A stretch of DNA of 64,000 nucleotides from Exiguobacterium profundum (GTDB lineage: Bacteria; Bacillota; Bacilli; Exiguobacteriales; Exiguobacteriaceae): assembly GCF_001909285.1 (NCBI RefSeq), contig NZ_MRSV01000001.1:1737051-1801050 (forward strand), written 5' to 3'. How positions within the stretch are numbered: position 1 is the stretch's first letter; the number at the start of each line of letters is the position of its first letter. The translations under genes and the position numbers were made by a program. Of this stretch, positions 13,744 through 30,396 are shown one piece after another. Below the pieces are notes generated by a model. That model was given only the letters and a program-made list of their open reading frames with translations, was not told the DNA's origin and did no database searches.

Positions 13744-14868
13744 TCAGCCTAATTTAGATTCGAGACGGTTATAGGGTGCAGTCGAGTTGCGGACGATCAA
13801 TTCGGGTTCATACGTATGTGACGGTGGCATCTCTTTTTTCTCGACGGCCGCGATAATCCACTCGGCTGCGGCACGACCCAATTCTTGCTTCGGGTGGATG
13901 ATCGAAGTCAGTTTAACCTCTGTCGCGACGGCAAGCACCGAGTCGTCATATCCGACGAGTGAGACGTCTTGCGGGACAGAGAGGCGTAGATTTCTCAACT
14001 GGTCCAACACATTAAGGGCGAGTTGGTCGTTATAACAGACGATTGCACTCGGCCGTTCGTCCGCGTTCTCAAACACTTGATGAATCACGTCATAAAAAGA
14101 GGGCACAAGTTCTTCTGTCGTATACGTTATAATTAATTCTGGCTCTAGGGGGAGATTGTATTCCCGGAACGCGCGTATAAAGCCGCGCATCCGATGGACC
14201 CCTTGAAGGTCATCTGTTTTGAAAAGTCCCATGATGCGCTCATGGCCAAGTTTGATGAGATGTTCGGCAGCCAAGAACCCACCCTTCTCGTCATCCATGA
14301 TCAAATAAGGGGGCGTCAACTGCGAATAGTATTGGTTAATCATCAAATAAGGCGTATGCTGTTGTTCGAGTTCTAAATAATATTTGATGTTCGGATTGTA
14401 GCTACTGCTCTTCGTCGGCTCGACTATCAACCCATCAATTTGACGATCTAACATCATCTCGAGGCACTGCCGTTCTTTCTCGACGTTGTTATCCGTACAA
14501 GATAAGGTCAACGTGTATCCTTTTGAAGCCAAGTGGGATTCAATCCCCCGGATGATGGACGGGAAGATATAATCAGACATGTAGGTCGTGATGACTCCGA
14601 TGTTTTTACCATTGCCTAAACGTTCGATCGTCTGGGGAGTCGAGGTCGGAAGGACCGGGGAACAATACGTGCCCGAGCCTTGTTCACGGTAAAGATAACC
14701 TTCGTTCACTAGTTCTCCTACAGCTTGTCGAATCGTATGACGGCTCACTCCAAATGATTGGACCAATTCATTTTCAGAAGGAATTTTTTCACCGGGTCTT
14801 ACCGTTCCATCTTTTATCCATTCAAGAATATGATCTTTGACCATATTGTACTTTGTGCGTTGTGCCAT
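13744..14868 (-). CDS. araR: Arabinose-responsive repressor AraR
   Basis: A 374-residue chimeric regulator. Residues 1-70 are a GntR-type winged helix (KIPSENELVQSFGVSRHTIRQ), and residues ~85-374 are a LacI/GalR-type sugar-binding domain (GLIVEPTK, LIMDDEKGGFLAAEHLIKLGH, AIVCYNDQLALN, SLVGYDDS). This arrangement and the ARA neighbourhood identify AraR, which leaves its operators when L-arabinose binds. The start at 14868 is chosen by alignment to AraR; a TTG at 14904 in the same frame is less likely. AraR-like operators lie just upstream, so autoregulation is likely. Confidence 0.92.
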   Translation of the reverse strand: MAQRTKYNMVKDHILEWIKDGTVRPGEKIPSENELVQSFGVSRHTIRQAVGELVNEGYLYREQGSGTYCSPVLPTSTPQTIERLGNGKNIGVITTYMSDYIFPSIIRGIESHLASKGYTLTLSCTDNNVEKERQCLEMMLDRQIDGLIVEPTKSSSYNPNIKYYLELEQQHTPYLMINQYYSQLTPPYLIMDDEKGGFLAAEHLIKLGHERIMGLFKTDDLQGVHRMRGFIRAFREYNLPLEPELIITYTTEELVPSFYDVIHQVFENADERPSAIVCYNDQLALNVLDQLRNLRLSVPQDVSLVGYDDSVLAVATEVKLTSIIHPKQELGRAAAEWIIAAVEKKEMPPSHTYEPELIVRNSTAPYNRLESKLG

Positions 14869-14904
14869 CTGGCGTCCCTGCTTTCTCTCATGTACGTCGA
14901 ACAA

Positions 14905-14918
14905 CTCATACGTACAAG
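14905..14918 (-). promoter_or_regulatory. AraR-like operator upstream of araR
   Basis: The minus strand reads CTTGTACGTATGAG, matching the core TTGTACGTA of AraR sites. A weaker site with TGTACGTCGA lies at 14889-14902. Both are within 60 bases of the araR start codon. Confidence 0.65.
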
Positions 14919-15000
14919 ATATGATCTTACTTCCATATTAACAAACAAATGTACCATTTACTATGAATAAGCAAAAAAATCATCTGAATCTTCTATGAAT

Positions 15001-15014
15001 ATGTACGGATGAAA
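15001..15014 (+). promoter_or_regulatory. AraR-like operator upstream of the araN promoter
   Basis: ATGTACGGATGAAA shares GTACGGATGAAA with the site before araB (21464-21475). It lies 24 bases upstream of the -35 box of the araN promoter and could serve in DNA looping with the site at 15174. Confidence 0.65.
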
Positions 15015-15037
15015 TATAAAAATACATAAAAATCGAA

Positions 15038-15066
15038 TTGACATGTCCGAACGTGTGTAATAGACT
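15038..15066 (+). promoter_or_regulatory. Promoter of the araNPQ operon
   Basis: TTGACA (15038-15043), a 17-base spacer and TAGACT (15061-15066). The -35 box is perfect and the -10 box matches at four of six bases. Confidence 0.6.
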
Positions 15067-15076
15067 CGAATTGTAC

Positions 15077-15090
15077 AGAAAACGCTTTCA
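15077..15090 (+). promoter_or_regulatory. cre site (CcpA) just downstream of the araN promoter
   Basis: AGAAAACGCTTTCA fits the cre consensus around the central CG with few mismatches. Placed at about +5 to +20, it would block transcription when CcpA binds during growth on preferred sugars. Confidence 0.7.
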
Positions 15091-15102
15091 TTACCAATTA
15101 TA

Positions 15103-15130
15103 TTGGTTTATTGGCTAGTAAATGTATAGT
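15103..15130 (+). promoter_or_regulatory. Possible second promoter before araN
   Basis: TTGGTT (15103-15108), a 16-base spacer and TATAGT (15125-15130). It lies downstream of the cre site and upstream of the palindromic operator at 15174. Confidence 0.4.
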
Positions 15131-15173
15131 GTCGTGTGGGCTTCATTATACAGTTTGCTTTTTTATTTAACTC

Positions 15174-15190
15174 AACATGTACGTACATCT
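15174..15190 (+). promoter_or_regulatory. Palindromic AraR operator in the araN leader
   Basis: ATGTACGTACAT (15177-15188) is a perfect 12-bp palindrome with the AraR core GTACGTAC. It sits 48 bases before the araN start codon and would act as a roadblock. Confidence 0.75.
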
Positions 15191-15235
15191 TTATCATGCT
15201 TTGCACATGAATATAAATTGATGGAGGAATTCACA

Positions 15236-16585
15236 ATGAATCGTAAAACGAAAAAAATGTTTGCGTTGACGATGTCAGCACTGATGACAACTTCTTTAGC
15301 GCTCGCCGGCTGTTCGGGAGACGAGGCAGGCGCGGATGGAAAAGTTGAACTGACATTTATGTTCCGTGGAAATCCAGAAGAGTTAAAAGCCTACCAAGCA
15401 ACGGTAAAACGTTTTGAAGAAGCCAACAAAGATGTAAAAGTGACGATGGTCCAGACGGCGCCGGATCAGTACGACACGAAACTCAAATCGGCCATCGCAG
15501 GTCGCAAAATCCCAGACGTCTTCTTCTATAATCCTGCCCAAGTGAAGGCCTATGTAAACTCGGGCGTGCTACTCGATATCACTGAAGCGGTTGAAACTTC
15601 AGAAGACGTCAAGTTGGACGACATTTGGGAGAAGGGTGTCGACAAATATCGTTTCGATGGGAAGACGCTCGGAGAAGGCGCGATTTACGGGCTACCGAAA
15701 GACTTAGGTCCGTTCGCACTCGGCTACAACAAGACGATGTTCGAAGATGCGGGCATCCCGCTTCCGGATAAAGACAAACCATATACATGGGACGAGTTCG
15801 TGGACGTGGCCAAACAGTTGACGAAAGACACGAACGGTGACGGGAAGATGGATCAGTACGGCACTGGCTTCAACGTGAACTGGGCCCTTCAACCGTTCGT
15901 TTGGAGTAATGGAGCGGACTGGATCAATGAAGATGGTACGAAAGTGACAATCGATGATCCGAAGTTCATCGAAGCGTTGCAATTCTTCGTCGATCAACAG
16001 TTGAAACACGGAATCACACCGTCAATCGGCGAAACACAGACGCTCGACACGTACCAACGTTGGCTGAAAGGACAGCTCGCCTTCTTCCCGGTCGGACCGT
16101 GGGATATGGCGGCATTTAAAGAACAGTTGAAATTCGAGTACGACTTACTCCCATGGCCAGCTGGTTCTACCGGTAAAGCGTCGGGATGGGTCGGATCGCT
16201 CGGGATTGGCGTCGGGTCGACGACGAAACATAAAGAGGAAGCGGCAGAGTTGGCCATGTACTTGTCTGCAGACCAAGAAGGGCAACAAGCGCTCGTAGAC
16301 GCGCAAGTCCAATTGCCGAACAGTATGGAAATCGCAGACAACTGGGCGGCTGATACGTCGATCAAACCAGAAAACAAACAAGAGTTCCTTGATTTGATCA
16401 ACGATTATGGCCGCGGCTTCCCGGCTGAGAAAACATACACGGCAGAATGGTACGACGAGTTCTTCAAAAACATCCAGCCTGTCCTCGATGGTAAAACATC
16501 GGTCGAAGACTATGTGAAGACGGCGCAGCCGAAGATGCAGAAGTTGCTCGATGCGGCGATCGAACAAGAGAAACAGGCGAACTGA
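15236..16585 (+). CDS. araN: Arabino-oligosaccharide ABC transporter, substrate-binding lipoprotein
   Basis: A 449-residue extracellular solute-binding protein of family 1 (MalE type). The signal peptide ends in the lipobox LALAGC, with the lipid-modified Cys at residue 26. The mature part has [42 protein letters not shown] and FPVGPWDM, which are typical for sugar-binding proteins. GGAGG precedes the ATG at 15236. It is the first gene of the araN-araP-araQ importer; the family and context point to arabinan-derived oligosaccharides. An MsmX-type ATPase must be supplied from elsewhere, as none is encoded here. Confidence 0.88.
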
Positions 16586-16633
16586 TCAGAGAGTCGAAAC
16601 GGGGGTGGCGAAGTTCGCCACCCGCGTCTCTGA
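16586..16633 (+). other. Intercistronic stem-loop between araN and araP
   Basis: Two nested inverted repeats: inner GGGTGGCGAA / TTCGCCACCC (16603-16612 and 16614-16623) and outer TCAGAGA / TCTCTGA (16586-16592 and 16627-16633). There is no T run, so an mRNA-stabilising or processing hairpin is more likely than a full terminator. It would favour a higher level of binding protein than of permease. Confidence 0.7.
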
Positions 16634-16654
16634 CGTTGAAAGGATGGAAGAACA

Positions 16655-17551
16655 ATGAAAACAAAATCGATTTCCAAGTTATATCGAACTGAACAGCGGT
16701 ACGCCTACTTGTTCGTTGCGGCACCGGTCATTGGGTTCTTCCTCTTCGCGTTCGTACCGTTGATGTATTCCGTTTACGGCGCCTTCACGAATTGGAACGG
16801 GCTTGGTCAAATGAAATTTATTGGGTTTGAGAACTTCGTCAATTTGTTCCAAGATGAATATTTTTATAAATCGATGTACAACACGCTCTTCATGATGATT
16901 GGGATTCCGATCGGCATCGTCCTCGCGCTGCTGCTCGCCCTCGCGTTGAATCGAAAGATTTTTGGGACGGATACGTTCCGCGTGATTTACTACATTCCCG
17001 TCATCTCGTCGATTGCCGCCGTCTCGATTTTGTGGCAATGGGCGTACAACGGGGACTATGGATTGGTCAACCAATTCTTGGCGTTGATCGGCATCGACGG
17101 GCCGAACTGGCTCCAAAACACCGATACCGTCAAACCCGCGCTCATTCTCATGGCGATTTGGAAAGGGCTTGGCTACACGATGCTCCTTTATTTGGCGGCG
17201 CTCCAAAGTGTCCCGAAATCATTTTATGAAGCAGCGAAACTCGATGGAGCCAACGCGTGGCAAAGCTTTTGGCACATCACGCTCCCGATGGTCAAACCGG
17301 TCACGTTCTTCATCATCGTGACGAACATCATCGGTGGGGCGCAAATCTTCACAGAAATCAACGTCATGACACCAACCGGGGGTCCGGAGTACTCGTCTGC
17401 CTCTGCGGTCTTCTACATTTGACAAAAATCGTTCGGGAACTTCCAACTCGGTTACGCTTCGGCGATGGCGCTCGTCCTCGGGCTCTTCATTTTCATCGTC
17501 ACGTTGCTCCAATTCCGGATGAATAAAAAATCATCGTTCGATCTTGATTGA
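16655..17551 (+). pseudogene. araP: ABC transporter permease AraP, interrupted by an in-frame TGA
   Basis: A MalF-type sugar permease with six transmembrane helices. The frame is open from ATG 16655, with AAAGGA upstream. The EAA loop is visible as SFYEAAKLDGANAWQSFW near residue 190. Codon 256 (17420-17422) is TGA; the same frame then continues for 42 codons through KSFGNFQLGYASAMALVLG and a final helix to the natural stop at 17549-17551, 31 bases before araQ. In relatives this position is Tyr or Trp (YIYQ/YIWQ), so TGG to TGA is the simplest explanation. Without readthrough or suppression the product lacks its last helix and would probably be inactive. A base-calling error is possible. Confidence 0.85.
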
Positions 17552-17581
17552 GCGATTCGCGTATAGGAAAGGAGAATGACC

Positions 17582-18466
17582 ATGCAATTAGCTCTCTCAC
17601 GGAAAAAAGAGAACGTGGAAACGATGTCGGTGAAGAAGAAGGACCGGATCACGGATTTCTTCATCTTTATCTTCCTGTCCATCGGAGCGGTCGTCATGAT
17701 CGCGCCGCTGCTCTGGATGGTATCGACGTCGTTAAAATCAAAAGAGGATGTGTTTGCACTCCCGCCGGTATGGATCCCGACCGATATTTCGTTTAGCAAG
17801 TACACGGAAATTTGGAGCATGGGCCCGCTGTTGTCGGGGATATCGAACAGTTTGATCGTCGCATTATCCGTCACGATTGTCGGGACGTTCACGTCGAGTT
17901 TGGCGGCGTTCGCCTTCGCGAAGTTGAACTTCAGAGGCAAGAATAAAATCTTTCTCCTTTTGTTCGCTTCTGTCATGATCCCGTACCCGGTGCTCATGAT
18001 TCCCCAGTTCATGATGTTCTCGAGCATCGGCTGGGTGGATACGCTGTTACCGTTGATCGTGCCGGGACTGTTCGGGAATATTTTCATGATTTTCTTCTTG
18101 CGCCAATTTTTGAACAGCTTTCCGAACTCGATTATCGAAGCGGCCAAGATTGATGGCTGCTCGTACTTCCAAATCTTCTATAAGATTATCTTTCCATTGA
18201 TCAAGCCGGCCGTGGCCGCGCAATTGATTCTTTGGTTCATGGCAATCTGGAACGACTATCTCGGACCGATTCTGTATTTGAACTCGCCGGAGAAACAGAC
18301 GCTTCAACTTGTCATCGCGAACTTTAACGCATCGTATGCAATTCAAAGTGATTATCCGTTAATCATGGCCGCGTCCGTCGTGGCGTTACTCCCGATGTTA
18401 ATCGTCTTCATGATCTTCCAAAAACAGATCATCGAGTCGATTGCGATTTCTGGTGTGAAGGGCTGA
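17582..18466 (+). CDS. araQ: ABC transporter permease AraQ
   Basis: A 294-residue MalG-type permease with six transmembrane helices. The EAA loop is seen as SIIEAAKIDGCSYFQIFYK near residue 190, and MIPYPVLMIPQF is typical of MalG proteins. It pairs with AraP to form the channel of the oligosaccharide importer. The ATG at 17582 is 7 bases behind AAAGGAG; another ATG at 17576 is too close to it. It is intact, in contrast to araP. Confidence 0.9.
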   Translation: MQLALSRKKENVETMSVKKKDRITDFFIFIFLSIGAVVMIAPLLWMVSTSLKSKEDVFALPPVWIPTDISFSKYTEIWSMGPLLSGISNSLIVALSVTIVGTFTSSLAAFAFAKLNFRGKNKIFLLLFASVMIPYPVLMIPQFMMFSSIGWVDTLLPLIVPGLFGNIFMIFFLRQFLNSFPNSIIEAAKIDGCSYFQIFYKIIFPLIKPAVAAQLILWFMAIWNDYLGPILYLNSPEKQTLQLVIANFNASYAIQSDYPLIMAASVVALLPMLIVFMIFQKQIIESIAISGVKG

Positions 18467-18480
18467 GGTGTGACAGGACA

Positions 18481-18514
18481 AAGGCACCCGTCTTTTTAAG
18501 GCGGGTGCCTTTTT
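18481..18514 (+). terminator. Terminator after araQ
   Basis: AAGGCACCCG / CGGGTGCCTT stem followed by TTTTT. Because no promoter is obvious between it and the next gene, it probably attenuates rather than stops expression of the arabinanase genes. Confidence 0.85.
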
Positions 18515-18543
18515 GATGGAGAAAGGAGATTGACATAAAAAAA

Positions 18544-19935
18544 ATGATGGTCTGGATGGCGTTGCTCATCGTCGCGGTCGGAGGTGTTTTCTTCTGGCAG
18601 ACGACGAGTGCATCAATCGATGAGTTGGCACTCCCGAAAGCGCCGTTTGAACAAAAGGTGGAAGACGTGACGCCAGACGTGCTCAACAAAGAGAGCGAGT
18701 GGACGACGAACTTCACGCATGACGGGGCAATCTTTAAAGATGGTGACACGTACTACGTTTTCTCGACGGATTACATGGTGGGTAGTCCTCCGACGCCCGG
18801 CATTCAAATTCGTAAATCGACCGATCTCATTCACTGGGAGTTCGTCGGCCGTGTGTTCGATCAAGTGTCTGAAGAGGCGTTCGCTTGGGCCGGTGGGAAT
18901 ACGTTCTGGGCCCCGGCGATCACAAAAATCGGAGATCGGTTCCACTTGTACTATTCCGTATCAGGGGTCGGGAGCCGCACGTCGTACATCGGGCTAGCGA
19001 CCGCGTCAACGATCGAAGGGCCTTGGGAAGACGAGGGCGCCGTCGTGACGTCGAAAGACGGGGACGGGGGTGTCGCCAACGCGATTGACCCTCATGTGAC
19101 GCAAGATGCGTCAGGTAAATGGTGGATGACGTATGGGTCGTACTTTGGGGGAATCTTTTTGACGGAGATTGATCCAGGCACCGGGAAGCGAGTGGACGAA
19201 TCGTCAGAAGGAACGCTGCTCGCCAAACGGAAAGACATGTCGATGGGCATCGAAGGACCGGAAATCTTATATAACGATGAGACAGGTTATTACTACTTGA
19301 TGGTGTCGTATGGTTGGTTAGAAGATACGTACAACGTCCGAATCGGTCGCTCGAAGTCAATCGCGGGACCGTACGTCGACTCGCGTGGTCGCGACTTACG
19401 GGACGAATCGGATGAGTCATTTGATACGGGCGTGAAAATCGTGGGTCCGTATCGTTTCGAAGGAGATGACGGATACGTCGGGACCGGACACTCGGCATTC
19501 TTACAAGACGGGACTGATACGTTCGTGTTGCATCAGGCGCGACCGAGTGAAGACATCTACTGGTCACAGTTGCACGTCCGAAAAGTGTATTGGACGAAAG
19601 ACGGTTGGCCGGTCGTCTCGCCCGAGCGCTATGCAGGCGAAGGAGACGTCGAGGTCGACGACGCCCATCTGGTCGGGGACTGGGACGTCATCACGTTCCC
19701 GCGATTCGACGATGGGCAGCAAGCCTGGAGCACGTTGACGTTGAAACGAGGCGGGAAGCTCGAAAACGGGGACGGGTCTTGGCGATTGAACGGCTCGGTC
19801 CTCGAGGTCGAAGTCGGGCAAGAGACGTATGAGACGCAAGTCGGAGCGGCTTGGGACTGGGAGAATTGGCAACCGACGATCATCTTCACAGGTCTGAGCG
19901 AGGACGGCACCGCCGTATGGGACAAAAAACGATAA
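18544..19935 (+). CDS. GH43 endo-alpha-1,5-L-arabinanase, exported
   Basis: About 463 residues: an N-terminal hydrophobic signal segment, a GH43 five-bladed propeller, and a C-terminal ~90-residue beta-rich domain starting near LVGDWDVI. Catalytic candidates are Asp in FTHDGAIF (base), Asp in ANAIDPHV and Glu in GIEGPEI (acid). It matches Abn2-type arabinanases that cut the arabinan backbone outside the cell. The start is odd. ATG 18544 lies 15 bases behind GGAG and gives a signal peptide without basic residues. An in-frame ATA at 18535 is ideally spaced and would add the expected Lys-Lys n-region, so an original ATG may have become ATA. Confidence 0.87.
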   Translation: MMVWMALLIVAVGGVFFWQTTSASIDELALPKAPFEQKVEDVTPDVLNKESEWTTNFTHDGAIFKDGDTYYVFSTDYMVGSPPTPGIQIRKSTDLIHWEFVGRVFDQVSEEAFAWAGGNTFWAPAITKIGDRFHLYYSVSGVGSRTSYIGLATASTIEGPWEDEGAVVTSKDGDGGVANAIDPHVTQDASGKWWMTYGSYFGGIFLTEIDPGTGKRVDESSEGTLLAKRKDMSMGIEGPEILYNDETGYYYLMVSYGWLEDTYNVRIGRSKSIAGPYVDSRGRDLRDESDESFDTGVKIVGPYRFEGDDGYVGTGHSAFLQDGTDTFVLHQARPSEDIYWSQLHVRKVYWTKDGWPVVSPERYAGEGDVEVDDAHLVGDWDVITFPRFDDGQQAWSTLTLKRGGKLENGDGSWRLNGSVLEVEVGQETYETQVGAAWDWENWQPTIIFTGLSEDGTAVWDKKR

Positions 19936-19951: not shown

Positions 19952-21265
19952 ATGCAAAAGCTGAACGGTCTGAAACGAGAAGAACGTTATGTGTTAGAAC
20001 GATTGACAGACGAAACGATGTGGGGCACACACAACGCCCACGATCCGGCGTCAATCAAAGTCGGGGATTGGTATTACGTGTTCTCGACGGACGCCGCCCA
20101 CGGACATCACATCAACGGCGGGATTCAAGTGCGTCGCTCACTTGACTTGATCCATTGGGAATACGTTGGCTTGGCGCTTGGAGAACTTCCGCACGAGGCT
20201 GTGGAATGGACGGGGGCGCCAGGGCTTTGGGCGCCGGAAGTCGTGTTCATGAGTGGTCGCTATGTCATGTACTATGCGGCTTCACAATTTGGACAGACGC
20301 AGTCGTATATCGGTGTCGCCAGTGCGGAAACGATAGACGGACCGTGGCAGGATCACGGGCTCGTCGTGAAGAGCGAGGCGGGGACATCGGGGCCGAATGC
20401 GATCGATCCGAATATCACGTTCGATGCGCAAGGAGAACCGTGGCTCGTCTACGGCAGCTTCTTCGGGGGGGTGTATGTGTTCCCGGTCGATCCGGAAACG
20501 GGAAAGAAACGCCCGGGGAGTGAGGAGACGTTGATTGCGAAACGTCACCAAAGCGTTGAAGGGGCAATCGAGGGACCGTATATCGTCTATCGGGAGGCGG
20601 ATCGCCATTATTACTTGTTCGTCTCGTACGACTCCTTGTTCAAGGACTATCACATCCGTGTGGCCCGCTCGACTTCGATCACCGGACCATACGTCGATTT
20701 TGATGGGAACGTCATGACCGACCTCGAGATCGACCCGCAACAAGTTGGCATGAAGATTCTAGGGGGCTATCGGTTCGGGGCTGGGGAAGGTTGGGTTGGT
20801 CCTGGTCATAACTCCGTCTTGCAGGACGGCGACAAGGATTATCTCGTCCATCACGTCAGAGGTGAGCAAGACCCGCACTGGCACGAACTGCATATTCGGA
20901 AAATCATCTGGACGGAATCGGGCTGGCCGCTCGTGTCTCCGCAACGATATGCCGGGGAAGAAGAGCGGTCCATCGAGATGGAAGAGCTCGTCGGGGAGTG
21001 GGAGTGGATCTACATGGACCGGACGAAACATGGCGTCCTGCCTTCGAGTAAGATTGAACTTCTAGGTGACGGGGGGACGTTCGTGACAGAGGACGGCGAA
21101 CGAGGGCGTTATGAGAAGCTGACGGATACGACCATCAAACTCTACGGTCCTGAAGGGATCACTTGGCATGTGTTACCGGGCTGGGACTGGGAGAATTGGC
21201 GAGAGACGCTCGTGTTCGCGGGATTGTCTGACCAAGGGCGAGTCTTTATCGGCAAACAACTGTAA
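19952..21265 (+). CDS. GH43 alpha-L-arabinanase/arabinosidase, cytoplasmic
   Basis: A 437-residue GH43 enzyme related to the preceding gene (same propeller motifs and the same C-terminal domain ending in WDWENWRETLVFAGLS) but without a signal peptide. Catalytic candidates are Asp31 in NAHDPAS, Asp in NAIDPNI, and Glu in AIEGPYI. It probably degrades imported arabino-oligosaccharides in the cytosol. AAAGGAG precedes the ATG, and the gap to the upstream gene is 16 bases. The two genes look like an old duplication with divided locations. Confidence 0.88.
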   Translation: MQKLNGLKREERYVLERLTDETMWGTHNAHDPASIKVGDWYYVFSTDAAHGHHINGGIQVRRSLDLIHWEYVGLALGELPHEAVEWTGAPGLWAPEVVFMSGRYVMYYAASQFGQTQSYIGVASAETIDGPWQDHGLVVKSEAGTSGPNAIDPNITFDAQGEPWLVYGSFFGGVYVFPVDPETGKKRPGSEETLIAKRHQSVEGAIEGPYIVYREADRHYYLFVSYDSLFKDYHIRVARSTSITGPYVDFDGNVMTDLEIDPQQVGMKILGGYRFGAGEGWVGPGHNSVLQDGDKDYLVHHVRGEQDPHWHELHIRKIIWTESGWPLVSPQRYAGEEERSIEMEELVGEWEWIYMDRTKHGVLPSSKIELLGDGGTFVTEDGERGRYEKLTDTTIKLYGPEGITWHVLPGWDWENWRETLVFAGLSDQGRVFIGKQL

Positions 21266-21280
21266 ATATCCGTACAACTT
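21265..21280 (-). promoter_or_regulatory. AraR-like operator at the end of the arabinanase gene
   Basis: The minus strand reads AAGTTGTACGGATAT. It begins at the stop codon of the upstream gene and lies about 125 bases before the site at 21396, a spacing that would allow looping. Confidence 0.65.
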
Positions 21281-21359: not shown

Positions 21360-21387
21360 TTGATTAATTTAAAATAGTTGATACAAT
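21360..21387 (+). promoter_or_regulatory. Promoter of the araBDA operon
   Basis: TTGATT (21360-21365), a 16-base spacer and TACAAT (21382-21387). Transcription would start near 21394. The -10 box is part of the left arm of the terminator at 21380-21437. Confidence 0.7.
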
Positions 21388-21437
21388 CAAGGTGTAAGTT
21401 ATACGTACAACTTGATTGTATCTTTTTGTTTTTTTTT
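21380..21437 (+). terminator. Intrinsic terminator that contains the araB promoter -10 box and an AraR operator
   Basis: GATACAATCAAG (21380-21391) and CTTGATTGTATC (21411-21422) are a perfect 12-bp inverted repeat, followed by a T-rich run (21423-21437). The 19-base loop is an AraR operator. A transcript from upstream contains both arms and can terminate. A transcript starting near 21394 lacks the left arm and cannot form the hairpin. Confidence 0.8.
21396..21413 (+). promoter_or_regulatory. AraR operator at the araB transcription start
   Basis: AAGTTATACGTACAACTT is an 18-bp near-perfect palindrome (one mismatched pair) with the TACGTA core. It covers about +3 to +20 relative to the predicted start. 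Confidence 0.8.
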
Positions 21438-21460
21438 CGAATCAGGCACGGTATTTGAAT

Positions 21461-21477
21461 AGTTGTACGGATGAAAA
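21461..21477 (+). promoter_or_regulatory. Downstream AraR-like operator before araB
   Basis: AGTTGTACGGATGAAAA lies about 65 bases downstream of the centre of the palindromic operator, close to six helical turns. Two cooperative sites before araA are known in B. subtilis. Confidence 0.7.
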
Positions 21478-21515
21478 GATAGGAGTGCCCACACACTTTA
21501 TTTTTTTCATCCTTT

Positions 21516-21530
21516 TTGTAAGCGCATTCT
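21516..21530 (+). promoter_or_regulatory. cre site in the araB leader
   Basis: TTGTAAGCGCATTCT fits the cre consensus WTGWAARCGYWWWCW at every position. It lies about 120 bases inside the transcript and 22 bases before the araB ATG, suggesting CcpA roadblock repression. Confidence 0.85.
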
Positions 21531-21551
21531 TTTAAAGGTAGGGTGATGAAT

Positions 21552-23243
21552 ATGGCCAACTATACAATCGGCGTCGACTACGGGACGCAATCAGGACGTG
21601 CGGTCCTCGTCGACGTAGCGACAGGCCGAGAAGTGGCGACCGCGGTCAAACCGTACACACATGGCGTCATGGATGAATATTTACCGGACGGGGTGACCCG
21701 TCTCGAGCATGATTGGGCGCTCCAACATCCACAAGACTATTTAGAAGTGTTAGAACTCACCATCCCGGCCGTCGTCAAAGAGGCGGGGATCACGGCTGAC
21801 CAAGTCGTAGGACTCGGTATCGATTTCACAGCCTGCACGATCTTACCGATTGACGAACACTTGAACCCGCTTTGTTTCCGCGAGGAACATCAGCAAAACC
21901 CGCACAGCTACGTGAAGCTTTGGAAGCATCACGCCGCGCAAGACGAGGCGGACGAGTTGAACCGCATCGCGGCCGAACGGGGCGAAGCGTTCTTGAAACG
22001 ATACGGCGGGAAAATCTCATCGGAGTGGATGATCCCGAAAGTGTGGCAAATCCTGAACGAAGCGCCGGCCATTTATGAAGCGGCGGACCAGATTCTAGAA
22101 GCGACGGATTGGGTCGTCTCCCAGATGACAGGTCGCGTCGTTCGGAACAGTTGCACAGCTGGATATAAAGCCATTTGGCATAAACAAGGCGGTTACCCGT
22201 CGAACGAATTCTTTAAAGCGCTCGACCCACGGCTAGAGAACGTTGTCGAAGAGAAACTAACGCGCGACATCGCGCCAATCGGGTCCAAGGCGGGTGAACT
22301 GACAGAGGCGTTCGCCGCGCGGATCGGACTCCTTCCAGGCACGGCCGTCGCGGTCGCGAACGTCGACGCCCACGTGGCGGTACCGGCTGTCGGAATCGCC
22401 GAACCTGGCAAGATGCTGATGGTCATGGGCACATCGACGTGCCATATCTTGCTCGGTGAAGACGAACAAGTCGTCCCAGGCATGTGCGGTGTCGTCGAAG
22501 ACGGCGTCATCCCAGGATTGATGGGCTATGAAGCTGGCCAATCGTGTGTCGGGGACCATTTTGAATGGTTCACCGAGACGTGTGTCCCAGGACATTATGT
22601 CGAAGAGGCCGCCTTGAAAGGTATCGGCATCCATCAGTTGTTGACGGAGAAAGCAGCCCGGCAACGTGTTGGGGAGAGCGGTCTCGTCGCCCTCGACTGG
22701 TGGAACGGGAACCGATCGACGCTCGTCGATACGAATTTGACGGGTGTCCTACTCGGAGCGACATTGCTCACGAAACCAGAAGACATTTACCGGGCATTGA
22801 TTGAAGCGACAGCGTATGGGACGCGGACGATTGTGGAAGCGTTCCGGAACAGCGGTGTCCCTGTGCATGAAGTATATGCGGCCGGCGGAATCGCCGAGAA
22901 GAACGCCCTCATGATGCAAATCTATGCGGACGTGTTGAACATGGAAATCAAAATCTCCGCCTCCTCGCAAACGCCTGCCCTCGGGTCGGCCATGTTCGGA
23001 GCGGTGGCGGCTGGTGCGGAGCGAGGCGGTTACGCCACGATCACGGAAGCGGCAGCGAAGATGGGCCGTGTCAAAGAAGAGACGTACAAGCCGATCCCGG
23101 AAAACGTCGCGACATATGATGCTCTGTTCGCCGAATACACGAAACTATACGACTACTTCGGTCGCGGTGAAAACGATGTGATGAAACGCTTGAAAAAAAT
23201 CAAAGCCGACGCGTCACGCGTTAAGGAGGAGCCGGTATGGTAA
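21552..23243 (+). CDS. araB: Ribulokinase
   Basis: A 563-residue FGGY-family kinase that phosphorylates L-ribulose to L-ribulose 5-phosphate. Seen are the N-terminal phosphate-1 loop [47 protein letters not shown] and the C-terminal [20 protein letters not shown]. The ATG at 21552 aligns with known AraB starts; ATG 21546 is an alternative. It is the first gene of araB-araD-araA and overlaps araD by 7 bases. Confidence 0.95.
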
Positions 23244-23935
23244 GCCGTCATTTGAAGGAAGCCGTGCTCGAAGCGAACTTGGCCCTCCCGCAACACGGCT
23301 TGGTCACGTTCACATGGGGCAACGTCAGTGGCATCGACCGTAACGCCGGATTGGTCGTCATCAAGCCGAGCGGTGTCCCTTACGAACGATTGACCGTGGA
23401 AGACATGGTCGTCGTCGATTTGGAAGGTAACGTCGTCGAAGGCGAGCTTCGTCCCTCATCAGACACACCGACCCATCTCGCGCTCTACCGGTCTCTCCCA
23501 GAGATTGGCGGGGTCGTGCATACCCATTCGCCATGGGCGACGAGCTGGGCACAGGCGAAGCGGGCGATTCCGGCGTTCGGAACGACACACGCCGATTACT
23601 TTTATGGAGAGATTCCGTGCACTCGAGAATTGACAGACGAAGAGATCGCGACGGCGTATGAGCTCGAGACCGGACACATCATTTTAGAGACACTCGACGA
23701 GTTAATGCTCGAAGCGGTCGCCGTTCCCGGCGTGCTCGTGGCCAACCACGCACCGTTCTGCTGGGGCAAAGACGCGAATGAGGCGGTCCACAATGCGGTC
23801 GTCCTCGAGGAAGTCGCCAAGATGGGACTTCATGCCTTGAACTTGAACCCTGGCCTGACACCGATTAAACAGAGCATCTTAGATAAACACTATTTGCGAA
23901 AACATGGGGCGAACGCATACTACGGCAAAAAATGA
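23237..23935 (+). CDS. araD: L-ribulose-5-phosphate 4-epimerase
   Basis: A 232-residue class II aldolase-fold epimerase that converts L-ribulose 5-phosphate to D-xylulose 5-phosphate. The zinc ligands are seen in [10 protein letters not shown] (two His) and in [12 protein letters not shown] (third His). The N-terminal [11 protein letters not shown] and [13 protein letters not shown] segments bind the phosphate. The start codon lies inside the end of araB, so the two are translationally coupled. Genes are in the order B-D-A rather than the A-B-D order of B. subtilis. Confidence 0.95.
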
Positions 23936-23969: not shown

Positions 23970-25457
23970 ATGTTGACAGCAAAAACATATGAATTTTGGT
24001 TCGTGACAGGAAGCCAAATGCTTTACGGCGAAGACGTGCTTCGACAAGTGGAGGATCATTCAAAAGAGATGGTGGCCGGACTCGATGCGGCCGACGTCTT
24101 TAGCGACCGGATCGTCTTCAAAGGTGTCGTCAAAAATACAGAAGAGATCCGTCAGATGATGCTTCAGGCGAATGCGGACGACTCATGTGCAGGCGTGATC
24201 ACCTGGATGCACACGTTCTCGCCATCGAAGATGTGGATCAGTGGCATGCGCGTCCTACAAAAACCGTTGCTCCATTTCGGTACACAGTTCAACCGTGACA
24301 TCCCTTGGGATGCAATCGATATGGACTTCATGAACTTGAACCAATCGGCGCACGGCGACCGGGAACACGGCTTCATCACGAGCCGGATGAACGTCAAACG
24401 CAAAGTGCTCGTCGGGCACTGGGAAGACGAGACGACGCGCGGCAAGATGGCGAGCTGGATGAAAGTCGCTCATGCGTTGGCCGAAAGCAAAGTGCTAAAA
24501 GTGGCTCGCTTCGGTGACAACATGCGCAACGTCGCCGTGACGGAAGGCGATAAAGTAGAAGCGCAGATCCGCCTTGGTTGGACGGTGGACGGATATGGTG
24601 TCGGTGATCTCGTCGTATATATGGACGCCGTGACCGACACAGATCTCGATGCGCTGATGGACGAATACGCGTCTCGTTACGAGCTGATGAACAAAGGGAT
24701 GGCAGAAGAGGAGTTCTTCGACTCGGTCCGTTACCAGGGTCGCATCGAACTCGGTATGAAAGCCTTCCTCGAGGCAGGCGGCTATACCGCCTTCACGACG
24801 ACGTTCGAAGATTTGCACGGCATGAAGCAGTTGCCGGGTCTCGCCGTCCAACGCTTGATGGAGCAAGGCTATGGCTTTGCCGGAGAAGGTGACTGGAAGA
24901 CCGCGGCGTTGGTCCGTCTCATGAAAATCATGGCGAACAACGAGCGGACCTCTTTCATGGAAGACTACACGTACCACTTCGAGCCGGGCAACGAGATGGT
25001 GCTTGGCGCCCACATGTTGGAGATTTGTCCGACGATTGCGGTCGATCAACCAAGAATCGAAGTCCATCCGCTCGGTATCGGCGACAGGGAAGCACCGGCC
25101 CGAATTGTCTTTGAAGGACAGAGCGGCAAGGCGTTGAACGCGAGTATCATTGATCTCGGCCATCGCTTCCGTCTTCTCGTCAACACGGTCGAAGGCATTC
25201 AGCCGGAAGAGGCGATGCCGAACTTGCCGGTCGCACGCGTTCTTTGGAAAACAGAACCTTCGATGGCGCAAGCGGTCGAAAACTGGATTCAAGCCGGTGG
25301 GGCGCACCACACCTGTTATTCGTATGAAGTGACGACCGACCAACTGCGGGACTTTGCGGAACTGCTCGACGTTGAAATCGCGGTCATCGACGCCAAGACG
25401 GAGACGGTCCAATTCAACAACGAACTACGGTGGAACGAACTTTACTATCGACCATAA
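23970..25457 (+). CDS. araA: L-arabinose isomerase
   Basis: A 495-residue enzyme interconverting L-arabinose and L-ribulose with Mn2+. Recognised segments are FWFVTGSQMLYGEDVLRQV, CAGVITWMHTFSPSKMWI, LLHFGTQFNRDIPW, ARFGDNMRNVAVTEGDK, GFAGEGDWKTAALVRLMK and FMEDYTYHFEPGNEMVLGAHM (metal-binding Glu and His, read as FMEDYTYHF and GNEMVLGAHM). The ATG at 23970 has AGGGGGA upstream and lies 34 bases after araD. The length agrees with the family. Confidence 0.95.
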   Translation: MLTAKTYEFWFVTGSQMLYGEDVLRQVEDHSKEMVAGLDAADVFSDRIVFKGVVKNTEEIRQMMLQANADDSCAGVITWMHTFSPSKMWISGMRVLQKPLLHFGTQFNRDIPWDAIDMDFMNLNQSAHGDREHGFITSRMNVKRKVLVGHWEDETTRGKMASWMKVAHALAESKVLKVARFGDNMRNVAVTEGDKVEAQIRLGWTVDGYGVGDLVVYMDAVTDTDLDALMDEYASRYELMNKGMAEEEFFDSVRYQGRIELGMKAFLEAGGYTAFTTTFEDLHGMKQLPGLAVQRLMEQGYGFAGEGDWKTAALVRLMKIMANNERTSFMEDYTYHFEPGNEMVLGAHMLEICPTIAVDQPRIEVHPLGIGDREAPARIVFEGQSGKALNASIIDLGHRFRLLVNTVEGIQPEEAMPNLPVARVLWKTEPSMAQAVENWIQAGGAHHTCYSYEVTTDQLRDFAELLDVEIAVIDAKTETVQFNNELRWNELYYRP

Positions 25458-29452: not shown

Positions 29453-30396
29453 GAGAGACGATCACAAATCCGCTAGTGGAACAACGAGCGGACCCATGGA
29501 TCATGCGCCATACAGATGGCTATTATTACTTCACGGCCTCGTTGCCAGACTTCACGGGCATCCCGCTCCGTCGGGCGAAGACGCTCGCGGCTTTGACCGA
29601 GGCCGACGAACGAGTCGTCTGGACTAAACGTGAGACGGGTATCATGAGTGCGAACATTTGGGCCCCGGAATTACATCACATCCAAGGGAAATGGTACCTC
29701 TATTTTGCGGCCGCGCGAGAAGATCACGTCTTCGATCATCGGATGTATGTGCTCGAGAACAGCTCGGCGAATCCGCTAGAAGGGGAATGGATTGAAAAAG
29801 GACAGATCCGGACTTGGTGCGAATCGTTCGCGCTTGATGCGACGACGTTCGAGCACGAGGGACGCCTCTATTATGTGTGGGCCCAAAAAGACCCGTCCAT
29901 CGATGGCAACTCGAACCTCTACATCTCGGAGATGGCGAACCCGTGGACGCTCACGGGGCCACAGACGATGATTGCGACGCCGGAGTATGACTGGGAGAAG
30001 GTCGGTTTCCTCGTGAACGAAGGCCCGGCCGTATTGAAGCGAAATGGTCACATCTATATCACGTTCTCTGCGAGTGCGACGGACCATCACTACTGCATGG
30101 GCCTCCTGCGCGCTGAGGGGACGAGCAATCTATTGGACGCGGCGAGTTGGACGAAACATCCGGAACCGGTCTTCGGAACCGATGAAGCGGCCAGTCAATT
30201 CGGACCGGGTCACAACAGTTTTACGATGCTAGATGACGGGACGGACATGCTCGTCTATCATGCCCGTAACTATAAAGAAATTGTCGGGGACCCGCTCTGG
30301 GACCCGAACCGACATACGCGTGTCCAACCGTTCATGTGGGATGAAGTCGGCCCAGTGTTCGGCCGACCGATTCGTGACGAGGAGGCTGTACGATGA
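29449..30396 (+). CDS. GH43 family glycosidase, cytoplasmic (copy 1)
   Basis: A 315-residue single-domain GH43 propeller without signal peptide, like exo-alpha-L-arabinofuranosidases of the GH43_26 type. Catalytic candidates are Asp in QRADPWIM (base), Asp in SFALDATTFEH, and Glu in FLVNEGPAVL (acid). The 3' end has FGPGHNSFT and DPLWDPNRHTRVQ. It overlaps araM by 4 bases. It is ~60% identical by eye to the next gene, so the pair arose by tandem duplication. Confidence 0.88.
   Translation: MRETITNPLVEQRADPWIMRHTDGYYYFTASLPDFTGIPLRRAKTLAALTEADERVVWTKRETGIMSANIWAPELHHIQGKWYLYFAAAREDHVFDHRMYVLENSSANPLEGEWIEKGQIRTWCESFALDATTFEHEGRLYYVWAQKDPSIDGNSNLYISEMANPWTLTGPQTMIATPEYDWEKVGFLVNEGPAVLKRNGHIYITFSASATDHHYCMGLLRAEGTSNLLDAASWTKHPEPVFGTDEAASQFGPGHNSFTMLDDGTDMLVYHARNYKEIVGDPLWDPNRHTRVQPFMWDEVGPVFGRPIRDEEAVR

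Follow-up and report, generated by a model that had tools for sequence, protein, structure and literature searches.

The window analysed here is a 64,000-nt stretch of Exiguobacterium profundum contig NZ_MRSV01000001.1 that carries a cluster of ara genes. The araR gene lies on the reverse strand (13744-14904, an open frame whose true start may be internal) and encodes a GntR/LacI-type repressor, identified by its matches to structures solved for B. subtilis AraR (3tb6, E 2.5e-94; 4egy, E 1e-19). The remaining genes are on the forward strand. araNPQ (15236-18466), assigned as a transporter by family resemblance only, is followed by two arabinanase-like genes (18544-19935 and 19952-21265), whose top NCBIfam models are arabinan endo-1,5-alpha-L-arabinosidases, with scores below the curated cut-offs. 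A gap of 286 bp separates them from araB (21552-23243), araD (23237-23935) and araA (ending at 25457), all placed with NCBIfam; AraB, AraD and AraA score above the curated cut-offs. The araB of the window shows 99% identity with that of E. chiriqhucha RW-2. Among plasmid records no close relative was found, the best araB identity being 74.8%. A family search covered 38 genomes and found araB in 11: six of the window's genus (g1), to which the window strain (G000) belongs, and five of the sister genus (g2). A wider survey took in the best 80 of 245 araB loci from named genomes.

The gap before araB contains a predicted promoter (21360-21387, forward strand) with the -35 box TTGATT at 21360-21365, a 16-nt spacer, and the -10 box TACAAT at 21382-21387, which is preceded by TG. 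The hexamers match the sigma-A consensus at 9 of 12 positions with a spacing of 16. Matches to the promoter consensus occur at chance level (15 found vs 14.7 expected in the 19 kb scanned), so the evidence for the araB promoter is its conservation: every one of the 11 araB-bearing genomes of the family carries TTGATACAATCA and the -10 box. In the wider survey an AraR operator is preceded by a -10 box at 46 of the best 80 of 245 loci, a count made without a chance control. This layout, in which an AraR operator covers the start of transcription, is old and found across Bacillaceae. The araB start site probably lies at about 21394-21396, ~7 nt past the -10 box.

The study of the B. subtilis ara regulon gives the AraR operator consensus as At(T/A)tGTaCGTAcaa(A/T)T, 16 bp, and describes paired boxes that must be in phase and act cooperatively via a small DNA loop (PMC4218819). 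A looser 18-mer pattern matched seven sites in the window at up to three mismatches vs 2.1 expected; one of 100 shuffles reached seven. Three of these candidate sites lie in the gap before araB. Operator O2 (AAGTTATACGTACAACTT, 21396-21413), predicted to lie over the start site, has one mismatch to the 18-mer and three to the strict 16-mer (scored on the identical sequence of locus L002), and it differs by one base between g1 and g2. O3 (21460-21477) is an AraR-like site in the araB leader with one good half-site, 64 bp or 6.1 turns from O2. O1 (21263-21280), also AraR-like, lies 133 bp upstream of O2 and overlaps the end of the arabinanase gene. O1 has three mismatches to the 18-mer and four to the 16-mer, and O3 has three to the 18-mer; at three mismatches neither is individually above chance. 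The two share an exact 12-bp inverted repeat, the half-site.

The spacing of O2 and O3 is 64 or 63 bp in g1 (6.1 and 6.0 turns) and 53 or 52 bp in g2 (5.05 and 4.95 turns). Their phase is therefore kept across a change of one turn between the genera. The O1-O2 spacing is less regular (133, 138 and 128 bp). With araR nearby, a match to the operator consensus, and two boxes in phase, the araB promoter has the features of an AraR-regulated promoter. The preliminary description of this DNA proposed that AraR bound at O2 would block both polymerases, those arriving and those starting. Obstruction of both by AraR at O2 is plausible, and the in-phase O2-O3 pair is the better-supported AraR feature.

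Laid over the promoter and the operator is a terminator-like hairpin, H1 (21380-21422, forward strand). Its perfect 12-bp stem is formed by the arms GATACAATCAAG (21380-21391) and CTTGATTGTATC (21411-21422), separated by a loop of 19 nt, and is directly followed by the T tract TTTTTGTTTTTTTTT (21423-21437), as seen in the sequence and in the g1 alignment. As RNA, H1 folds at -18.1 kcal/mol vs a shuffle mean of -5.4 (z -5.7), and none of 200 shuffles was as good. The preliminary description had named such a repeat with a T run as an intrinsic terminator and had put the -10 box in its left arm. The sequence features behind both statements were borne out: a stable hairpin far above shuffles runs directly into a T tract, and TACAAT (21382-21387) lies inside the left arm. 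The loop had also been equated with an 18-bp AraR palindrome; 15 of the 18 bp do lie in the loop, but the final three are the first three bases of the right arm. The H1 and AraR palindromes are not concentric, their centres being about 3.5 bp apart. Promoter, operator and hairpin are found together within one 78-bp stretch. Read as 20-nt arms, the element is 90% complementary with 3 nt separating the arms. It counts against a terminator that only four of the 12 stem pairs are G-C and that the loop is long. In the remaining five g1 genomes the T-tract position holds TTTTTGTTTTCTGTA or a sequence near it.

Hairpins with a following T tract were scanned across the window and in 19 block shuffles. 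At the strict cut (dG of -18 or lower and T score of 4.0 or higher), two sites were found vs a mean of 0.47, and 2 of the 19 shuffles also reached two; at a cut of -12 there were 13 sites vs 3.2 in shuffles. Downstream of the arabinanase genes, H1 is the only strict-cut site before the second leader hairpin. A scan of 464 kb of the same genome (the window plus 20 stretches, with longest open frames as crude gene calls) gave 183 intergenic sites with a dG of -12 or lower and a T score of 3.5 or higher. Against these 183 sites passing the -12 cut, with their median of -16.7, the -18.1 of H1 is a usual strength for its own genome. Its position is rare. Co-directional sites, with a gene end within 300 nt upstream and a same-strand gene start within 400 nt downstream, number 77 of the 183. 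A left arm holding a -10 box with a matching -35 occurs at 2 of the 183 sites in the 464 kb and at one of the 77, namely H1.

The H1 stem is present in all six g1 genomes. Five have 12 of 12 pairs, one of them with one G.U; in G009 the hairpin is weaker (-14.3), with 11 of 12 pairs, including one G.U and one mismatch. There are three right-arm differences within g1, two of which preserve a G.U pair. At the H1 position all five g2 genomes form merely 4 to 7 of 12 pairs, with folds of -1.4 to -3.9. This distribution bears on the reading that the H1 palindrome acts as DNA, either as an extended AraR site or as a cruciform. Such a role could account for the overlap with the operator, but the palindromes do not share a centre, the arms are not kept in g2, where O2 stays but for one base, and the known AraR site is 16 bp (PMC4218819). 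A function as DNA is very improbable, and the palindrome as an enlarged AraR site was rejected, being off-centre and absent in the sister genus.

In the five g2 genomes, the 400 nt preceding araB yielded no other hairpin with a T tract at a dG of -8 or lower and a T score of 3 or higher, and the ara genes therefore work there without such a terminator. In the wider survey, where only the best stem per operator was recorded, the best stem lay over the -10 box with a T tract at 2 of the 46 loci with the promoter-operator layout (from the best 80 of 245). Both are g1, the sequences of G008 and G018, with T scores of 4.98 and 4.57. At the other 44 layout loci (two g2 Exiguobacterium and 42 from other bacteria), the T score was at most 2.11 and the best stem was never H1-like. 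It follows from this distribution that promoter and operator are old and that the terminator is limited to a single genus among those surveyed. The preliminary description had called for a check of the nested design in relatives; with the design found in g1 only, it is not a conserved ara feature. Gain of H1 in g1 and loss elsewhere would be indistinguishable from these sequences, gain probably being the simpler course.

Within g1, the right arm and T tract (to 21433) vary less than their surroundings, with 4 of 20 columns variable vs 61 of 97 in the flanking sequence (Fisher 0.0009). Extending the T tract to 21437 gives 6 of 24 vs 59 of 93 (p 0.001); the right arm by itself has 3 of 9, which is not significant (p 0.15). 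The segments for these tests were picked after the alignment had been viewed. The figures are relevant to a competing account in which promoter and operator are functional and the palindrome is a lineage accident that would cause little termination, read-through being set by a terminator after araQ and by AraR bound downstream. The promoter and operator without the hairpin in all five g2 genomes and at 42 loci of other bacteria (best 80 of 245) agree with an accident, as does the unremarkable variability of the right arm alone; the perfect 12-bp match beside a T tract, far above shuffles and kept in six of six g1 genomes, and the reduced variation of the arm and tract together speak against it.

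The araQ gene is directly followed by a strong hairpin resembling an intrinsic terminator (18482-18510, forward strand, -22.7 kcal/mol). With cuts of -18 for dG and 3.5 for the T score, it is found in five of the six g1 genomes and in no g2 genome of the five. Thus g1 has one or two stop signals and g2 shows none. The strong araQ hairpin in five g1 genomes favours the accident account; G007, which has H1 and no araQ hairpin, speaks against it. The accident account is doubtful, though a serious contender. Since araNPQ has its own terminator, H1 should mainly receive read-through from the arabinanase genes and transcripts that start downstream of the araQ hairpin. The idea that transcripts from araNPQ as well as from the arabinanases end at H1 is accordingly narrowed to the latter, since those from araNPQ should mostly stop at 18482-18510. 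The first arabinanase open frame begins about 33 nt past the araQ hairpin (18482-18544). That leaves scant space for a dedicated promoter, and expression of this gene may depend on read-through or on a promoter within araQ.

The reading that is favored, and considered probable, is that a sigma-A promoter with its AraR operator has been overlaid in one genus by an intrinsic terminator that stops upstream transcripts and spares the promoter's own. The right arm of H1, just past the operator, is complementary to the -10 region. When arabinose is absent, AraR on O2 and O3, in phase and probably joined by a small DNA loop, would shut the promoter, and the bound repressor would obstruct polymerases coming from the arabinanase genes. 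With arabinose, AraR would leave, polymerases from upstream would copy both arms, and H1 would form; most of their transcripts would end at about 21424-21432, within the U tract. Polymerases that initiate near 21394-21396 would never copy the left arm and so would pass. The escape of these transcripts, as it had been proposed, is supported at H1 itself, where an RNA begun at 21394, lacking the left arm, has a fold energy of just -2.4; in the window strain, however, such transcripts meet a second hairpin with a T5 run at 21469-21517.

This second hairpin, H2 (21469-21512, forward strand), has an outer stem GGATGAAAA/TTTTCATCC and an inner stem at 21482-21499. The segment 21469-21520 folds at -19.1 kcal/mol. 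In the window strain H2 is followed by TTTTT at 21513-21517 (T score 4.01), and with this run directly downstream it resembles a terminator. The T5 occurs in the window strain only among the 11 genomes; the other ten have TATATG, TTTATG or GAAATG. The T tracts after both H1 (21423-21437) and H2 (21513-21517) are longer in the window strain than in the five other g1 genomes. The core of H2, AGTGCCCACACACTTTATTTTTT, is found once in each of the 11 araB-bearing genomes and in none of the 27 others (up to two mismatches); within g1 only 1 of its 23 columns is variable (p 1.6e-7). The stem shows no double changes. Three weak Rfam matches at 21364-21514 (E up to 5) were far below the gathering scores. 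A small upstream ORF behind the invariant block of the araB leader was considered and rejected, because, by eye on the alignments, its frame relative to the upstream ATG differs from genome to genome and the window strain has an early stop.

It could be argued that H2, not H1, is the control point, acting in the window strain as an attenuator on read-through and araB transcripts alike and perhaps relieved by a partner of its loop. The fold energy, the T score, and a core unchanged in all 11 genomes speak for this reading. Termination at H2 cannot be a conserved function, because the adjacent T5 exists in the window strain alone, and control at H2 in place of H1 is unlikely.

A cre-like site, TGTAAGCGCATTCT (21517-21530, forward strand), is predicted in the araB leader, where none of 16 columns (21518-21533) is variable in g1. 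A second, AGAAAACGCTTTCAT (15077-15091), lies in the araN leader and is unchanged in the 11-genome alignment. Both are candidate CcpA sites by their resemblance to the cre consensus. Cre-like sites thus sit downstream of both ara promoters.

The araN promoter (TTGACA-17-TAGACT, 15038-15066, forward strand) matches at 10 of 12 hexamer positions, and both hexamers are unchanged across the 11 genomes. Its leader contains a further hairpin, H3 (15124-15151, forward strand), with a covarying 8-bp stem and the 12-nt loop TCGTGTGGGCTT. Downstream of H3, at 15174-15191, an AraR operator is predicted from the 18-mer pattern and the alignment. Across the 11 genomes (nine distinct rows), 72 of 72 H3 cells are paired, and three pairs are altered on both sides. 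No slid version and none of 500 shuffles reached the number of cells paired, the double-changed cells, or the covariation score; the double-changed pair count and the pair-type count were reached by 211 of 500. The changes largely split g2 from the rest, so they represent few events, and the two largest may be single. RNAalifold recovers the H3 stem with two double-changed pairs. G.U pairs in several genomes suggest that H3 is an RNA element and not a DNA palindrome.

Within what was searched, H3 was found in the same family only. Its loop pattern occurs once in each of the 11 araB-bearing genomes and in none of the 27 others. A covariance model of H3 found nothing at the 49 non-Exiguobacterium loci that it was run on, from a set of 76. 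Among 299 sampled genomes of the class, it matched nine, all Exiguobacteriaceae, under strict filters, and nothing outside the family. Rfam gave no match at 14900-15300 (E up to 5). An outer extension of the H3 stem is followed by TTTTTTATTT (from 15160) in the window strain and other g1 genomes, and with the extended stem running into this tract H3 looks like an attenuator in g1. The extended hairpin (15117-15169) with its tract stands between the araN promoter and araN; g2 keeps H3 without the T tract.

The loops of H2 and H3 are complementary. In all 11 genomes GUGUGGGC of the H3 loop is perfectly complementary to the invariant GCCCACAC of the H2 apical region. On the araB side the match spans the apical loop at 21487-21494 (forward strand), and on the araN side its reverse complement, GTGTGGGC, is at 15134-15141 (forward strand) in the H3 loop. 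The match is 9 nt long in nine genomes and 8 nt in the window strain and G017. Forming the 9-mer duplex would yield about -16 kcal/mol vs opening costs of 2.7-4.0 and 3.4-5.3 (10 of 11 genomes, with G030 left out). An 8-mer match between invariant columns arose by chance in 41 of 5000 trials when the araB columns were permuted and in 62 of 5000 when both were permuted; this test was post hoc, devised after the match was noticed. A chance origin is made less likely by where the match sits, in the apical part of each hairpin. Two conserved hairpins with complementary apical regions of 8-9 nt in 11 of 11 genomes are what pairing between two mRNAs would be expected to show.

Other comparisons are less telling. 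The AraR site yields a further 8-nt match between the leaders, trivially, and in the window GTGTGGGC also occurs at 29875 and 30834, inside open frames. The duplex energies of the whole leaders were equalled or bettered by 0 to 2 of 30 shuffles (10 of 11 genomes, G030 left out); they have no discriminating power, since partners rich in AT give long, weak duplexes. Both loops are invariant but for one Y position in the araN loop, which araB does not follow with a change; no covariation between the loops is seen. The main alternative to RNA pairing is a shared DNA-binding protein that would use GTGTGGGC in opposite orientations at the two leaders. The G.U-tolerant stem argues against such a protein at araN, and less so at araB, where the stem has no double changes.

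On the pairing reading, the araN (transport) and araB (catabolism) mRNAs would touch through their leader loops, in trans or, on read-through transcripts that hold both, in cis, and couple the stability or expression of uptake and breakdown. This is possible, though the odds lean against it. Loop contact would, as we read it, affect the stability or processing of the RNAs. In Listeria, mRNA-mRNA pairing of hly with prsA2, between a 3' UTR and a 5' UTR, has been shown experimentally (PMC8079631). As described there, that pair resembles the present one in that two functionally related mRNAs have complementary untranslated regions; it differs in that here two 5' leaders would pair through apical loops, as predicted from sequence only (PMC8079631). 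The hly-prsA2 pair is a precedent for mRNA-mRNA pairing and not for the araN/araB arrangement.

The nested element itself can be regarded as real. It combines known parts, was found in one genus, and is rare within the portion of the genome that was sampled. The account of its working in the preliminary description is partly supported. Like other intrinsic (Rho-independent) terminators, H1 is a stem directly followed by a T tract, with a distance and energy usual for its own genome. It is unlike the usual ones in that its left arm is the -10 region of the next operon, the single such case among the 77 co-directional sites in 464 kb. In the E. coli frd-ampC region, the promoter lies in the last gene of the upstream operon and is followed, ahead of the downstream gene, by the terminator, which both transcripts therefore meet. 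The end of one operon is likewise merged there with the promoter/attenuator of the next. The difference is that the left arm of H1 holds the promoter, so the promoter's own transcripts are without half the hairpin.

The ara regulon of B. subtilis, with AraR operators at araABDLMNPQ-abfA, araE and abf2, shares the repressor family, the operator consensus, and two in-phase boxes at one promoter (PMC4218819). Judged by the operon name given there, araABD and araNPQ form one operon in B. subtilis, unlike here, and a nested terminator goes unmentioned in that accessible text (PMC4218819). Among the literature titles listed, mostly from outside the subscription journals, nothing was found on a promoter nested in a terminator arm or on the ara leaders of Exiguobacterium, which is no proof of absence. 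In the gap before araB of G009 (locus L087), a perfect 15-bp inverted repeat, TTTCTAATAAAAATG...CATTTTTATTAGAAA, lies shortly past the arabinanase stop; by eye, the window strain is without it.

The nested element suggests how a promoter can tolerate a terminator superimposed on it: transcripts of the downstream operon would start past the left arm and so never include it. The two genera, alike in promoter and operator but for small differences, and with the hairpin in g1 only, form a clear pair in which the benefit of operon insulation can be addressed. The complementary leader hairpins are a by-product of this analysis and its larger and most interesting finding. If the loop contact is true, the nested terminator in g1 would help to decide whether the loops are on one RNA or on two. 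If the loops really pair, they would provide a conserved mRNA-to-mRNA link between the transport and the catabolism of one sugar.
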